The position numbers and the translations under genes are program-made. The notes beneath the pieces were generated by a model. It worked only from the letters and a program-made list of their open reading frames with translations. It had not been told where the DNA came from and made no database searches. From contig NZ_BMNR01000001.1 of assembly GCF_014646655.1 (NCBI RefSeq), forward strand, positions 252,077 through 316,076: a DNA stretch of 64,000 nucleotides. Direction: 5' to 3'. Source of the DNA: Yeosuana aromativorans. Lineage in GTDB: Bacteria; Bacteroidota; Bacteroidia; Flavobacteriales; Flavobacteriaceae. Below, piece after piece: positions 19,197-48,749 of the stretch (position 1 is its first letter; each line of letters begins with the position of its first letter).

Positions 19197-20279
19197 TTAT
19201 CCATTAATAATCTTTTCTTGATGGTTGATGGATTCTTGATGAATGGCCTTAAACATTTTTAAGATAAATTCTTCACTTAATCCATGATCTTGTCCTTCTA
19301 AAACCATACGCCCTAAAATTTCATTCCAACGTTTCGATTGCAATACGGCCACATTCTTTTGTTTTTTCAAGGATCCAATGCCATCAGCTGCTTTCATACG
19401 TTTTCCAAGCAAACTGATAATTTGATTATCCACCACATCTATTTGCGCTCTCAAATTATCCAAAGACCTGTTATATTCTGCCTCTGCATCAGTTTCTTTT
19501 CTGATTTTTAAATCTTTCATGATTTGTACTAACGTTTGTGGCGTTACTTGCTGTGCAGCATCACTCCATGCGTTATCTGGGTCAAAATGAGTTTCAATCA
19601 TCAAGCCGTCAAAATTCAAATCCAATGCAGTTTGCGATACGTCAAAAATCATATCTCGTCTACCTGTAATATGTGACGGGTCATTAATGATTGGCAAATC
19701 AGGGAACTTGGTTTGTAGCTCAATGGCCATTTGCCACTCTGGGTTATTTCTGTATTTGGTTTTTTCATAAGTTGAAAACCCTCTATGAATAACACCAAGC
19801 TTTTTAATATCGGCCGTTGCCAAACGCTCAATGGCACCTAACCATAATGCCAAATCAGGATTTACAGGGTTTTTAACCAACACAATTTTATCGGTTCCTT
19901 TTAAAGCGTCTGCAATTTCTTGAACAATAAACGGACTTACCGTTGAACGTGCACCTATCCATAATAAATCAACATCGTGTTCCAATGCCAATTTTACATG
20001 GGCTGCATTGGCAACCTCGGTTGCTGTTTTTAATCCGGTTTCTGCCTTAACTTTTTGCAACCATTTTAATCCTAGTGCACCAACACCTTCAAACATGCCT
20101 GGGCGTGTTCTAGGTTTCCAAATACCAGCTCTAAAGTAACTAACATCTGTATCTTTTAATTGGTTTGCAATTTTTAAAACTTGTTCTTCTGTTTCTGCGC
20201 TGCATGGGCCTGCAATTACTAATGGATGTTCTAGTTTTAAATCATCTAACCAGGCTCTTAACTCTTTTTTGTTTTCCAT
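19197..20279 (-). CDS. Bifunctional 3-deoxy-7-phosphoheptulonate synthase / chorismate mutase
   Basis: 360 residues. Residues about 1-262 form a KDO8P-synthase-like DAHP synthase (LVIAGPCSAETEEQ, YFRAGIWKPRTRPG, LVKNPVNPDL, DPSHITGRRD), which makes the first shikimate-pathway intermediate. Residues about 268-355 form an AroQ-type chorismate mutase (NLRAQIDVVDNQIISLLGKR). In characterised fusions of this type the mutase domain gives feedback control by prephenate or tyrosine. It is the last gene of the Phe/Tyr operon, 11 nt after tyrA, and ends at a strong terminator. Confidence 0.95.
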   Translation of the reverse strand: MENKKELRAWLDDLKLEHPLVIAGPCSAETEEQVLKIANQLKDTDVSYFRAGIWKPRTRPGMFEGVGALGLKWLQKVKAETGLKTATEVANAAHVKLALEHDVDLLWIGARSTVSPFIVQEIADALKGTDKIVLVKNPVNPDLALWLGAIERLATADIKKLGVIHRGFSTYEKTKYRNNPEWQMAIELQTKFPDLPIINDPSHITGRRDMIFDVSQTALDLNFDGLMIETHFDPDNAWSDAAQQVTPQTLVQIMKDLKIRKETDAEAEYNRSLDNLRAQIDVVDNQIISLLGKRMKAADGIGSLKKQKNVAVLQSKRWNEILGRMVLEGQDHGLSEEFILKMFKAIHQESINHQEKIING

Positions 20280-21142: not shown

Positions 21143-22284
21143 ATAACTCTAGATAATGCTTCCTCTAAAACATCGGTTGATGCACACAAGGAAAACCTAA
21201 TATAACCCTCACCTTTACTTCCAAAAATAGTTCCAGGCGTAATGAAAATATGATTGTTTTTGAGCACTGAATCTATAAATTCCTCTGATTTTAAATGTGC
21301 CGGCAATTTTGCCCAAACAAACAAACCAGTTGCTTCTTTATCATAACTGCAACCCAAGGCTTCTGCTAATTTCCATACCAAATCCCTTCGTTGTTGATAC
21401 ACGCTATTTAAGGTGCTAAACCACATGCTTGAGCACTTGAGCGCTTCAATAGCACCTTTTTGAATGCCATAAAACATTCCGGAATCCATATTACTTTTTA
21501 CTTTTAAAATATTGCTAATATGTTTGCTATCACCCACAACCATGCCCACTCGCCAACCTGCCATATTAAACGTTTTGCTCAAGGAATTAAGCTCTAGGCA
21601 AACATCTTTGGCTCCTTTTACGCTTAAGATGCTTTTTGGTGAATTGTTCAATATAAAACTGTAAGGATTATCATTTACCACCAATATGTTATGCTTTTTG
21701 GCAAAGGCCACTAATTCTTCAAACAAAAATTTACTGGGCTGTGCACCTGTTGGCATATGCGGATAATTTACCCACATGAGTTTCACCTTGCGTAAGTCCA
21801 TTTTAGACAATGCTTTTAAATCCGGTGCCCAGTTATTGGCTTCATCCAATTCGTAAAAAACAGATTTTGCTCCTACTAATTTGGTGACCGATTCGTAGGT
21901 TGGATATCCAGGATTCGGAATTAACACCGCATCGCCTTCATTTAAGTATGCCATGGAAATATGCATAATACCTTCTTTACTTCCCATTAATGGCAAAATT
22001 TCAGAAGTAGGACTTAAAGGCACTTTAAAATGCTCTTTATAAAATGCTGCCATAGCATCCCTTAGTTCTGGCAAGCCTTGATAGCTCTGGTATTTATGCG
22101 CATTAGGATTTGAAAAACTATTGGCAATGGCATCAATTACCTTTTGCGGCGGTTGCATATCAGGACTTCCAATTCCTAAGTTGATAATGGGTTTCCCGTT
22201 TGCAATAAGCAAATTAACTTCTCGTAATTTTTTCGAGAAATAGTATTCTTCTACCGTATGCAATCTATTAGCTACTTCAATCAT
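21139..22284 (-). CDS. PLP-dependent aminotransferase, probably aromatic amino acid
   Basis: 381 residues, class I/II fold type I aminotransferase. The PLP lysine is in SLSKTFNMAGWRVG; VNYPHMPTGAQ and VVNDNPYSFI carry the cofactor-binding Asn and Asp. Its place between pheA and tyrA, with 4-nt overlaps on both sides, argues that it transaminates phenylpyruvate and 4-hydroxyphenylpyruvate, completing Phe and Tyr synthesis. Relatives are often annotated as aspartate or methionine aminotransferases, so specificity is an inference from context. Confidence 0.9.
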   Translation of the reverse strand: MIEVANRLHTVEEYYFSKKLREVNLLIANGKPIINLGIGSPDMQPPQKVIDAIANSFSNPNAHKYQSYQGLPELRDAMAAFYKEHFKVPLSPTSEILPLMGSKEGIMHISMAYLNEGDAVLIPNPGYPTYESVTKLVGAKSVFYELDEANNWAPDLKALSKMDLRKVKLMWVNYPHMPTGAQPSKFLFEELVAFAKKHNILVVNDNPYSFILNNSPKSILSVKGAKDVCLELNSLSKTFNMAGWRVGMVVGDSKHISNILKVKSNMDSGMFYGIQKGAIEALKCSSMWFSTLNSVYQQRRDLVWKLAEALGCSYDKEATGLFVWAKLPAHLKSEEFIDSVLKNNHIFITPGTIFGSKGEGYIRFSLCASTDVLEEALSRVI

Positions 22285-23108
22285 AACTTTGCATTTTTGT
22301 ATTCGCCTAAAATTTTCAAACCTTGGGTCATAATATTTAAAATAGACTTTGCCTTGGCAAAATCTTGATACGTTTCAAAAGTCACATCCACAAAAAAGGC
22401 ATATTTCCAAGGTGTCTCAATGATTGGCAACGATTGTATTTTGGTTAAATTCAATTTGCAATCACTCATTACATTCAGCACCGTTGCTAAACTTCCCCGT
22501 TTGTGATCGGCTACAAATTTCAATGACGCCTTATTGATCTCTGCTTCTGGATATTCTGAATTGGTGCGCTTTACAACCACAAACCGTGTTTCGTTGTGTT
22601 TGATGGATTGAATACTATGGGCTAGAATATCCAACTCAAAGATTTCAGCTGCATAGGCACTGGCTATGGCACCAATATGTTTTAATTGATTGTTGTGAAT
22701 ACGCTCAGCAACCTCTGCAGTATCTTTATCCTCAACCAATTTAATATGTGGATAGTCTTTAAAAAACTCCTTACATTGCAACAAGGCCATCGGGTGCGAA
22801 TACACTTCTTGGATATCTTCAATGGTCTGGTTTGGCAAGGCCATCAAACAATGTTGGATATCTAAATAATGTTCTCCAACAATATGCAAATTATGGTTGT
22901 CTATCAAGGCATAATTTGGAATGATAGAGCCTGCAATGGAGTTTTCCAAGGCCATAATTACGGCATCACTTTCTTTGCTTATTAAGGATTCAACCACTCT
23001 GTCAAATGTCAAACATTCTATGACATCAACAGGTTTTTCAAAAAATTGCTGCGACACAATATGATGAAACGATCCTTTTATTCCTTGTATGGCTACTGTA
23101 TGTATCAT
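22281..23108 (-). CDS. pheA: Prephenate dehydratase
   Basis: 275 residues. It converts prephenate to phenylpyruvate. The dehydratase domain (about 1-180) begins VAIQGIKGSFHH and contains the catalytic-region NETRFVVV; an ACT domain (about 190-270, SLKFVADHKRGSLATVLNVM and IQSLPI) suggests feedback inhibition by phenylalanine. There is no fused chorismate mutase; that activity is on the DAHP synthase. It is the first structural gene of the operon and starts only 2 nt after the T-tract of an attenuator terminator, downstream of an aromatic leader peptide. Confidence 0.95.
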   Translation of the reverse strand: MIHTVAIQGIKGSFHHIVSQQFFEKPVDVIECLTFDRVVESLISKESDAVIMALENSIAGSIIPNYALIDNHNLHIVGEHYLDIQHCLMALPNQTIEDIQEVYSHPMALLQCKEFFKDYPHIKLVEDKDTAEVAERIHNNQLKHIGAIASAYAAEIFELDILAHSIQSIKHNETRFVVVKRTNSEYPEAEINKASLKFVADHKRGSLATVLNVMSDCKLNLTKIQSLPIIETPWKYAFFVDVTFETYQDFAKAKSILNIMTQGLKILGEYKNAKL

Positions 23109-23110
23109 AT

Positions 23111-23139
23111 AAAAAAAGTCCCGATTTCCATCGAGACTT
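23111..23139 (-). terminator. Attenuator terminator of the Phe/Tyr operon
   Basis: In the minus-strand RNA, AGUCUCGAU (23138 to 23130) pairs with AUCGGGACU (23125 to 23117) over 9 bp with one G-U pair and a 4-nt loop, followed by a run of U ending at 23111. It stands between the leader peptide and pheA. Its 5' arm is also complementary to 23184-23177 inside the leader-peptide coding region, giving an alternative antiterminator. Confidence 0.85.
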
Positions 23140-23163
23140 ATACTTAAATTTATTTTCTATAAA

Positions 23164-23247
23164 TTACACATACAACGTCTCGATCTCTTTGCTAAAAAAG
23201 AAATAAAACCAGTTGCTAAAATATGTGTAACCTACTGTTGTCTTCAT
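23164..23247 (-). CDS. Aromatic leader peptide of the Phe/Tyr operon (27 aa)
   Basis: An ATG-to-TAA frame of 27 codons. Ten residues are aromatic: Phe at 10, 14, 16, 17 and 18, Tyr at 7, 9, 15 and 26, Trp at 13; the core is YTYFSNWFYFFF. The stop is 24 nt before the terminator 5' arm. Codons 22-24 hold an 8-nt segment (23184-23177) perfectly complementary to that arm (23137-23130). This is the classical attenuation layout: ribosome stalling at Phe/Tyr codons would leave the segment free to form the antiterminator, and free passage would allow the terminator. A near-consensus promoter lies just upstream. The peptide itself is presumably only a sensor. Confidence 0.85.
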   Translation of the reverse strand: MKTTVGYTYFSNWFYFFFSKEIETLYV

Positions 23248-23257
23248 AATTATGCGG

Positions 23258-23286
23258 CTAAAGTAATTATTATTTTCTCAAATCAA
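23258..23286 (-). promoter_or_regulatory. Probable promoter of the Phe/Tyr operon leader
   Basis: On the minus strand, TTG at 23286-23284, an 18-nt spacer, then TACTTTAG at 23265-23258 (one mismatch to TAnnTTTG). Start of transcription would fall about 10 nt before the leader-peptide ATG at 23247. Confidence 0.5.
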
Positions 23287-23312
23287 AATTGTAAAAACAT
23301 TTTTTTACAATT
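23287..23312. repeat. Perfect AT-rich palindrome in the pheA-gldA divergent region
   Basis: Arms AATTGTAAAAA (23287-23297) and TTTTTACAATT (23302-23312), 4-nt loop. It abuts the -33 element of the Phe/Tyr promoter and lies about 55 nt upstream of the gldA -7 candidate. It could be an operator or an early terminator-like hairpin; no protein can be named. Confidence 0.5.
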
Positions 23313-23367
23313 TATTTAAAAGTTTTAAAGATTTTAACGCAAAGCTTCAAATAAATTATATAATCAT

Positions 23368-23375
23368 TATTTTTG
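23368..23375 (+). promoter_or_regulatory. Candidate -7 element of the gldA promoter
   Basis: TATTTTTG fits TAnnTTTG and stands 17 nt before the gldA ATG. At the right -33 distance there is TTC instead of TTG, so the match is partial. Confidence 0.4.
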
Positions 23376-23391
23376 AACAAAGAATTTTAAT

Positions 23392-24288
23392 ATGTCAATA
23401 GAGGTAACAGGCGTTTCAAAATTTTACGGAACACAAAAAGCGCTCAACAAGGTGTCTTTTCATGTTTCAAAACCAGAAATTGTTGGGTTTTTAGGTCCTA
23501 ACGGAGCGGGAAAATCAACTATGATGAAAATTTTGACCACTTATATTGCTGCTTCTGAAGGAGTTATTAAAGTCAATACATTTGATGTTAATGAAGACCC
23601 CATAAACGTTCAAAAAAGTGTAGGGTATTTACCAGAGAACAATCCGTTATATTTAGAGATGTACGTTAAAGAATATTTAAGCTTTAACGCCCAAATATTC
23701 AAAATAGGCAAACAACGCATTGATGAAGTAATTGAGCTTACGGGATTAACCCCCGAAGCTCATAAAAAAATAGGCCAGCTCTCAAAAGGATACAGACAAC
23801 GTGTAGGATTGGCCAATGCGTTATTGCATGACCCAGACGTGTTGATTCTTGACGAACCCACAACAGGTTTAGACCCCAACCAATTGGTTGATATTAGGAA
23901 CTTGATAAAAACCATTGGACAGACAAAAACGGTGTTTTTATCCACACACATTATGCAAGAGGTTGAGGCTATGTGCGACCGTGTTATTGTAATCAATAAA
24001 GGTGAAATTGTGGCCGACAAAAAACTGGAAGAACTAAGAGACGGTAAGGAACAAACGGTTATTGTTGAATTTGATTATCGCGTTGAAGATGCCTTTTTAA
24101 AGGATTTACCTAAAGTTAGTACCGTGGTAAACACACATGGTTTTGTATATGAAATCACGTTTAAAACCTCTGAAGATATGCGCCCTAAGGTTTTTGATTT
24201 TGCCTATGATAACCAACTTAAGATTTTGCAATTAAACCAAAAGAATGCAAGTTTGGAAAGTTTGTTTAGGGAGTTGACCAGTAATTAA
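23392..24288 (+). CDS. gldA: Gliding-motility ABC transporter ATP-binding subunit GldA
   Basis: 298 residues. Walker A GPNGAGKST at 35-43, ABC signature LSKGYRQR at 131-138, Walker B VLILDEP at 151-157, H-loop in FLSTHIMQEV. The start MSIEVTGVSKFYGTQKAL and the C-terminal extension match flavobacterial GldA. In Flavobacterium, GldA works with membrane subunits GldF and GldG in an exporter required for gliding in F. johnsoniae; those genes are not here. Its 3' end overlaps the convergent GIN-domain gene by 4 nt. A generic ABC-2 exporter ATPase is the alternative. Confidence 0.88.
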   Translation: MSIEVTGVSKFYGTQKALNKVSFHVSKPEIVGFLGPNGAGKSTMMKILTTYIAASEGVIKVNTFDVNEDPINVQKSVGYLPENNPLYLEMYVKEYLSFNAQIFKIGKQRIDEVIELTGLTPEAHKKIGQLSKGYRQRVGLANALLHDPDVLILDEPTTGLDPNQLVDIRNLIKTIGQTKTVFLSTHIMQEVEAMCDRVIVINKGEIVADKKLEELRDGKEQTVIVEFDYRVEDAFLKDLPKVSTVVNTHGFVYEITFKTSEDMRPKVFDFAYDNQLKILQLNQKNASLESLFRELTSN

Positions 24289-31388: not shown

Positions 31389-31405
31389 TAAGGGAAACAC
31401 TTTTC

Positions 31406-31515
31406 GTTATCTTTCCAATATTCATTGAAATATTAGTAGAACGTAGCACCTTCTTTACTAGATAAAGGGTTGCCAAGGCTTCAACGGGTCTATTCCCTCT
31501 ACCTTTCTTGATAAC
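31406..31515 (-). promoter_or_regulatory. SAM-I (S-box) riboswitch upstream of metH
   Basis: The minus-strand RNA has P1 strands GUUAUC (31515 to 31510) and GAUAAC (31411 to 31406), the core AAGAAAGG then GAGGGA, UGAAGCCUUGGCAACCC and AAGGUGCUACGUUCUAC. These are the conserved S-box blocks. It binds SAM and would repress methionine synthase when SAM is plentiful. A TATTTTTG -7-like motif lies upstream at 31551-31544, without a good -33 partner. Confidence 0.92.
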
Positions 31516-31598
31516 ATTATTTTTATGTTTATGAACTGGTGAGCAAAAATACTATATATATTGTTTTTATTGGTAATAAATTGAAAAAAATCCCTGAT

Positions 31599-48437: not shown

Positions 48438-48557
48438 TTTTCTAATTTTTTGAATTAATACATAATTAAACCAAAAGCCAAATGCATCAAAATTTGATGT
48501 ACTTAATAGAAAAATGTTAAAAAGAATTTTTAAAACTACAGAAAGTAATTTCGTTTG
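48438..48557 (-). promoter_or_regulatory. Expression platform region of the metY riboswitch
   Basis: It contains an anti-P1 segment (48526 to 48515) complementary to the aptamer 5' end in two blocks of 5 bp, an AT-only hairpin TTAAAAA-TTC-TTTTTAA followed by CATTTTT, and a palindrome CATCAAAATTTGATG at 48484-48498. None is a convincing GC-rich terminator. No ORF is seen. Confidence 0.4.
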
Positions 48558-48668
48558 GTTATCTATCTAAAACCAATAAATTGATTTAAGTAGAATTTAG
48601 CACCTTCTCTACGAATAAAGGGTTGCTAAGGCTTCATTGGGTCTAATCCCTCCGCCTTTCTTGATAAC
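48558..48668 (-). promoter_or_regulatory. SAM-I (S-box) riboswitch upstream of the metY operon
   Basis: P1 strands GUUAUC (48668 to 48663) and GAUAAC (48563 to 48558); core AAGAAAGGCGGAGGGAUUAG, UGAAGCCUUAGCAACCC, and AGAAGGUGCUAAAUUCUAC. The conserved blocks match the metH copy at 31406-31515 closely. It would lower expression of metY, the MetX-ThrA fusion and probably the following genes when SAM is high. Confidence 0.93.
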
Positions 48669-48749
48669 ATTTCAATAAGTTTTTGAACTTTGTGAGTGCA
48701 AATATTCAGTTAGAAAAATTTAAAAACCTAATTTTTTTAGCAAAAATTT

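Follow-up and report, generated by a model that had tools for sequence, protein, structure and literature searches.

The pheA gene of Yeosuana aromativorans is very probably preceded by a ribosome-mediated transcription attenuator. The window, i.e. the whole stretch of 64,000 nucleotides analysed here, contains in front of pheA a short open reading frame (ORF) rich in aromatic codons, an antiterminator strand within this ORF and an intrinsic terminator. A sequence-only reading of the window had proposed an attenuator at this place, an interpretation which is supported by the sequence comparisons described below. They provide a laid-out, testable regulatory model for aromatic amino acid synthesis in a major phylum.

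Leader anatomy, target operon and proposed mechanism

The leader is located on the minus strand of a divergent intergenic region, with gldA (23392-24288, plus strand) on one side and pheA on the other. Its features and the genes behind it are listed with the evidence used for each.

23258-23286, minus: promoter-like element, TTG (23286-23284), 18 nucleotides and TACTTTAG (23265-23258); sequence reading and relatives
23164-23247, minus: leader ORF with ATG start, 27 codons plus stop, encoding MKTTVGYTYFSNWFYFFFSKEIETLYV; sequence and ORF list, kept in relatives
23194-23211, minus: predicted main stalling cluster, codons 13-18 (Trp Phe Tyr Phe Phe Phe); sequence and codon conservation
23159-23235, minus: hairpin 1:2; folding and comparison of relatives
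23177-23184, minus: segment A, 5' strand of the antiterminator, ATCGAGAC / AUCGAGAC; sequence and comparison
23130-23137, minus: segment B, GTCTCGAT / GUCUCGAU, common to antiterminator (A:B) and terminator (B:C); sequence and swap test
23111-23139, minus: intrinsic terminator B:C with U-run at 23117-23111 (U7); sequence, folding and relatives
22281-23108, minus: pheA, prephenate dehydratase; PF00800, 188.5 bits
21139-22284, minus: class I/II aminotransferase; PF00155
20291-21142, minus: tyrA, prephenate dehydrogenase; NF006307, 387.5 bits (cut-off 295)
19197-20279, minus: DAHP synthase fused to chorismate mutase; PF00793 and PF01817

Ten of the 27 codons of the leader ORF are aromatic (5 Phe, 4 Tyr and 1 Trp). 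The ORF had been claimed in the sequence-only reading, was recovered base by base and is present in the ORF list. Re-reading of the coordinates likewise bore out the terminator claimed there, whose U-run stops 2 nt short of the pheA ATG at 23108, and the 8-nt complement between ORF and terminator, segment A being the exact reverse complement of the terminator 5' arm with A:B perfect over 8 bp. The proposed likeness of segment A to the terminator 3' arm, of which it is almost a copy, and the promoter-like element about 10 nt upstream of the ORF were found in the sequence as well; the distance from TACTTTAG to the leader ATG is 10 nt. The TTG-N18-TACTTTAG layout presumably represents the promoter type of the Bacteroidota. 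For the terminator hairpin, with arms AAGTCTCGAT / ATCGGGACTT and a GGAA loop, -12.5 kcal/mol were calculated. The A:B duplex of the window (locus L001) reached -14.6 kcal/mol, a value attained by none of 100 dinucleotide shuffles, and an equally good fold of the leader region was obtained with 2 of 200 shuffles (z -2.69).

A further hairpin, 1:2, is formed by the ORF itself and had been overlooked in the sequence-only reading. In the calculated fold the end of the ORF was paired with codons 5-9, and a purine-rich stretch overlapping segment A was paired with the aromatic codons. Classical attenuators follow a scheme of 1:2, 2:3 and 3:4 arms, in which this hairpin would by analogy take the place of the 1:2 arm.

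The four genes listed above lie on one strand, with a 4-nt overlap at each of the first two junctions, and pheA gave the sole PF00800 match found in the genome. Family matches confirmed the operon content previously read from the sequence (pheA, aminotransferase, tyrA, DAHP synthase), and the gene order was identical in 79 of 80 named relatives; in the one exception the DAHP synthase gene was not found within the stretch compared. Divergent gldA was directly upstream in 47 of the 80. Judged by its genes, the operon thus serves the synthesis of both Phe and Tyr and contributes to chorismate supply as well.

The following mechanism is proposed. RNA polymerase would initiate a few bases upstream of the leader ATG, followed by loading of a ribosome on the leader ORF. 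At scarce charged tRNA-Phe, and probably also tRNA-Tyr, the ribosome would stall on the aromatic cluster and open hairpin 1:2, the first strand of which includes the aromatic codons. Segment A, set free in this way, would capture B once B is made, the terminator would not form and pheA, aminotransferase, tyrA and DAHP synthase genes would be transcribed. At good supply the ribosome would stand one to two codons further on or at the stop codon, its front edge would mask A, B would pair with C and transcription would end 2 nt before pheA. When the ORF is not translated, hairpin 1:2 may favour termination, which is a weak point for the window's own sequence. Production of Phe and Tyr appears to be governed jointly by a single terminator, which makes leader alleles and the cross-talk of Phe, Tyr and Trp supply directly testable.

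Conservation in relatives and spread over the class

A total of 125 pheA loci were compared, 45 from 60 genomes (the window's own included) and 80 from a scan of named genomes. At least two contigs occur twice in this set (L005/L057 and L016/L081), a second, partial match in G005 was omitted, and some other families of the order are included. Using a strict criterion for the ORF (12-45 codons, at least 7 aromatic residues, at least 25% aromatic, at least 4 aromatic within 6 residues), 118 of the 125 loci, counting the window's own, had an aromatic ORF upstream of pheA. Such an ORF was present in 9 of 556 control regions, taken upstream of other ORFs of some 200 codons and longer at the 80 named loci, and in 45 of 2500 base shuffles of the regions upstream of pheA. 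The search for a conserved aromatic ORF and conserved hairpins in relatives, suggested in the sequence-only reading, was thus positive, with the pairings kept as detailed below. The strict criterion failed at seven loci (L012, L025, L028, L036, L044, L045 and L076). At L028 the terminator is present and the ORF weaker. L012 does not represent a loss, because the covariance model R1 located the leader of this genome (G019) at C21:149102-149235, some 500 nt ahead of pheA (149748) and thus outside the 260 nt inspected; leader and pheA are separated by something in this genome.

An ORF with at least 7 aromatic residues together with a terminator of -9 kcal/mol or better was found at 113 of the 125 loci, which reduce to 60 nonredundant sequences (<88% identity). 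At 89 of these 113 loci the A:B duplex was better than at least 95 of 100 dinucleotide shuffles; at 24 it was not. Of the 60 nonredundant leaders, 55 had a promoter element of the TAnnTT(T/A/C)G type in the 60 nt preceding their ATG, versus 13.5% of base-shuffled regions. In 51 of these 55 it starts 17-30 nt upstream of the ORF. The leader RNA thus probably begins some 5-15 nt ahead of the ATG, which would leave hardly any space for a Shine-Dalgarno site.

The model R1 and alignment A2 were made from 31 sequences of the window's terminator type (L027 and L033 omitted). With R1, matches at E <= 0.001 were obtained in 136 of the 199 family genomes, three of these 136 having two matches, and the position relative to pheA was compared by eye for some of these genomes. 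In the window's own genome the pheA leader was the only significant match (3.9e-18), and no further significant leader copies were found with R1, the next two matches having E values of 0.17 and 0.20, of which one lay at nearly the same place but on the opposite strand.

Pairing was counted in 33 nonredundant sequences that share the terminator type of the window. The 1:2 pairs hold in 721 of 951 cells (75.8%), compared to 41-57% when the partners were slid by 1-3 columns, the A:B pairs in 88.6% (18-40% slid) and the B:C pairs in 326 of 330 (98.8%; 21-55% slid). For 1:2, 34 two-sided changes distributed over 13 of 31 pairs were observed; two 1:2 pairs hold in just 5 and 6 of the 33 sequences. 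Covariation in both terminator and antiterminator had been put forward as a check of the attenuator, and the outcome was divided. Within the clade of the 33 sequences there were 2 two-sided changes in A:B and none in B:C. Between clades the B arms vary (GTCTCGAT, GTCCCG, AATCCTGAT, ATCCCGCT and others), and segment A varies along with them. When the B arms were swapped among 67 distinct ones, the own A:B pairing had a mean of -11.68 kcal/mol versus -7.87 (sd 0.27) for permuted pairs, and 0 of 20,000 permutations were as low, which has to be taken as a guide and not as a probability because the sequences are related. The own B was best or tied best in 13 of 67 cases with a median rank of 7, many B arms being alike; arms without a shared 6-mer bind equally well in 9.5% of cases. 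Together, the 8-bp A:B pairing and the swap test demonstrate that the antiterminator has one strand in common with the terminator.

At the level of the class, a pheA profile matched 69 of 257 genomes. Since about three quarters of the sampled class genomes had no match to this profile, class-wide here means among genomes with this type of pheA. Of the 69, 64 pheA starts were examined, leaving out G000, G040 and the partial or weak matches G081, G186 and G300; seven of the 64 loci belong to the window's own family. An ORF with aromatic cluster plus terminator was found at 43 of the 64 loci in 16 families, and outside the window's family at 36 of 57. The strict ORF criterion alone was satisfied at 38 of the 64 loci. 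The spread of the leader well beyond the family, as judged from these sequences, adds to the earlier reading. At 21 of the 64 loci the pair of ORF and terminator was absent. These include all eight pheA loci of family f27 (L152, L153, L161, L162, L163, L167, L173 and L176), where neither leader nor terminator was found, perhaps due to a lineage-specific loss or replacement by another control. Tentatively, and with somewhat less than even confidence, we propose a class-ancestral attenuator in which one leader integrates the charging of tRNA-Phe and tRNA-Tyr (and of tRNA-Trp where coded, as in 41 of the 60 nearer leaders), the sensing codons form the strand pairing with the antiterminator region, and ribosomes start about 5-15 nt from the RNA 5' end.

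The carrier families include f47, the family of G131, which is probably Bacteroidaceae, judging from the fact that G131 alone reached the Rfam gathering score for the Bacteroides sRNA BTnc231. This sRNA is also the best, though weak, Rfam match of the pheA leader (24.6 bits, gathering 80.4). Together with the leader's own promoter-like element and terminator, this match would fit a separate gene at this place, for a small RNA or a small protein, whose short transcript ends at its own terminator and has no part in the control of pheA. We consider such a gene extremely improbable. Against it speak the position of the terminator, only 2 nt ahead of pheA, the retention of the element in front of pheA in many families, the co-variation of the mutually exclusive A:B pairing and, in G131 itself, the long distance between the BTnc231 match (C1:260591) and pheA (C1:508925). 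BTnc231 as a hidden pheA leader was rejected as a chance match, given its low score, this distance in G131 and the lack of an ORF of pheA length downstream on that strand in L047.

Modelled ribosome position, evidence for translation and the amino acids probably sensed

The spacing was analysed in 103 leaders that passed the ORF and terminator filters, 60 from the nonredundant nearer set and 43 from the class-level loci. Among them the distance from the last codon of the aromatic cluster to the start of segment A had a median of 10 nt (5-95%: 6-13). Segment A lies ahead of the stop codon in 91 of them and past it in 12 (L071 and L089 are examples of the layouts). The 6-13 nt range set against this 91/12 split indicates that the distance of A to the cluster is better kept than its place relative to the stop codon.

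The consequences of this spacing were calculated for the 103 leaders with a footprint model, in which the ribosome masks 17 nt upstream and 12 nt downstream of the first base of the A-site codon. These values are E. coli-like and may differ from those of this organism. A first ribosome model, in which pairing of B with anything upstream was counted, was dropped as it blurred the states and gave the expected order in 58 of 103 leaders; in its replacement A:B and B:C were counted separately. The mean probability of A:B forming before C is made was 0.77 when the A-site was still 2-4 codons short of the last aromatic codon, 0.64 when it had reached that codon, 0.27 one codon on and 0.05 two codons on. 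It was 0.50 without ribosome and 0.08 with a ribosome at the stop codon. In this calculation, based on an E. coli-like footprint, A is mostly free when the ribosome stands on the key codons and masked when it has moved past them. A stall on the cluster gave more A:B than a ribosome at the stop codon in 97 of the 103 leaders (no more in 6) and more than no ribosome in 81 (no more in 22). In terms of the model, this step partly follows from the location of A, and its informative part is that A is found there in nearly all lineages.

For the window's leader the corresponding probabilities were 0.97 at codons 14-17, 0.85 at codon 18, and 0.00 both at codons 19-22 and at the stop codon. Without ribosome it was still 0.87; a protecting role of hairpin 1:2 is therefore not borne out in the window's own leader. 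At equilibrium of the full transcript with the ribosome on the cluster, the terminator reached a mean of 0.87 versus 0.08 for A:B in the 103 leaders, and 0.98-0.99 in the window's leader with the ribosome on codons 15-18. As the terminator wins at equilibrium, the proposed switch must be kinetic, with A:B forming first.

Several observations point to translation of the leader ORF. Over the 103 leaders 365 TAY codons are in phase, versus 55 and 80 in the other two frames. The ORF frame is open in all 103 (by selection) versus 17 and 15 of 103 for the other frames, and alignment gaps within the ORF are multiples of three. Aromatic identity is kept in 16 families despite differing surroundings and hairpins, and the trp, his and ilv operons of the same genome also have ORFs of the corresponding types upstream (WWW, HHHH and Ile/Val-rich). 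These findings speak against an untranslated ORF whose U-rich stretch is merely one strand of a structured leader read by a protein or ligand through the same terminator switch. This reading, which we judge to be very unlikely, could draw on a hairpin that is stable without ribosome and on the codons of the cluster. The sequence TAT TTC TTT TTT (23194-23205) is near-invariant in 41 distinct sequences, more than the amino acids require, and when changes were counted by codon position in 41 distinct C-terminal halves, third positions showed no clear excess at the cluster codons and after them. A dN/dS-like proof of translation was dropped because of this missing excess and the near fixation of the cluster nucleotides, and the case for translation therefore rests on phase and conservation. 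With a translated ORF, the fixity of third positions can be explained by these bases serving both as codons and as a hairpin strand. Pairing with the purine strand may account for the codon invariance, and the T-run of these codons may have a role in slippage.

With regard to the amino acids sensed, the 103 leaders contain 507 Phe, 365 Tyr and 59 Trp residues. The composition fits an operon making Phe and Tyr, and from the codons we regard it as fairly likely that Tyr is sensed as well as Phe. As a sub-case of the attenuator, essentially Phe alone might be sensed, with Tyr and Trp codons arising by drift or because UAY and UGG suit the U-rich strand of the hairpin. Phe is the most frequent residue, each of the last three cluster codons is Phe in 40 of the 41 sequences of the window's clade, and UUU and UAU are both able to pair with the purine-rich strand. 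However, Tyr codons are in phase and frequent across the class, one cluster Tyr codon is present in all 41 sequences, alternations such as FYFYFY or FYYFYF occur in other lineages, and the operon makes both amino acids, so that sensing of Phe alone appears possible but rather unlikely. For Trp the case is weaker, because trpE has its own WWW leader. Trp is present in 57 of the 103 leaders (41 of 60 in the nearer set), and the head of the cluster in the window's clade is Trp in 27, Phe in 8, Asn in 5 and Leu in 1 of 41 sequences.

Comparison with known leaders and other elements of the genome

Leaders of pheA and pheST in enteric bacteria work with a leader ORF, a protector, an antiterminator and a terminator. 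They read Phe alone, and enteric Tyr genes use TyrR. The pheA leader described here would share working and target gene with this system (Rfam RF01859, Phe_leader). It missed the RF01859 threshold with 22.3 bits (gathering 55), a result from which no kinship is shown, and unlike the enteric leader it unites Phe, Tyr and often Trp codons. The thr and ilv leaders of enteric bacteria combine codons for several end products of their operon in one leader; the pheA leader would resemble them in this respect, with different amino acids. The nearest relative in kind is Bacteroid-trp (RF01692) of the same phylum, by its Rfam name a tryptophan peptide leader RNA. It differs in reading Trp codons and sitting before trpE, and gave no match at the pheA leader even up to E 10. 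For T-boxes there was no match at gathering level in the window and none up to E 10 in 23000-23400. The pheA leader did not reach the threshold of any family in the present Rfam release, and the alignments obtained here could seed a new one.

Whether this attenuator was described in flavobacteria had been left open by the sequence-only reading. In part it was: the accessible text of PMC9723704 reports, for Flavobacterium psychrophilum, a structured 5' element in front of pheA that is conserved in other genera of the Flavobacteriaceae and lacks an Rfam hit, along with clues for leader-peptide attenuation upstream of amino acid operons. This element concerns the same gene in the same bacterial family. 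The accessible text gives no leader sequence, hairpin model or spread beyond the family for pheA; the supplement may hold more. For Bacteroides thetaiotaomicron, the available part of PMC7366714 mentions long 5' UTRs containing short ORFs that recall leader peptides. The authors of PMC2965389 (2010), according to the part available, knew no leader-peptide system outside Proteobacteria and Actinobacteria except for their own finding. A laid-out pheA leader peptide of Bacteroidota was not found in the literature as far as these partial texts go, and the supplement of PMC9723704 or a comparative attenuation paper of 2010 (Lopatovskaya et al.) may hold one. Given the trp, his and ilv leaders of the genome, Bacteroid-trp in Rfam and the pheA element in the accessible text of PMC9723704, the novelty is modest. 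The device is of a known kind, and its spread over the class and mixed aromatic code were not found laid out in the source parts available.

Elements of the leader-peptide type also precede trp, his and ilv genes in the same genome. No clear thr leader was found upstream of the homoserine dehydrogenase genes, where several loci had too little upstream sequence. The trpE leader (L222, contig C4) encodes MNTILNNTWWWSFRNVIS, is followed by a terminator and matched Bacteroid-trp with 65.3 bits (49 required). The hisG leader (L207, contig C5) encodes MNFIQLHHHHFQICPQAK and has its terminator 44-73 nt before the hisG start; HHHH-type his leaders were also seen in the relatives L202-L206 and L208. 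The ilvD leader (L211, contig C1) encodes the Ile/Val-rich MKEQILNIISIIVIVVLSQG, and its terminator lies 202-226 nt before ilvD with a long stretch between. In the ilvD flank a SAM-II long-loop riboswitch was matched at L211:2990-3091 (plus strand) with 48 bits (gathering 44). Finally, two SAM (S-box) riboswitches were detected above the Rfam gathering score in the window, at 31404-31517 and 48556-48670, both on the minus strand.
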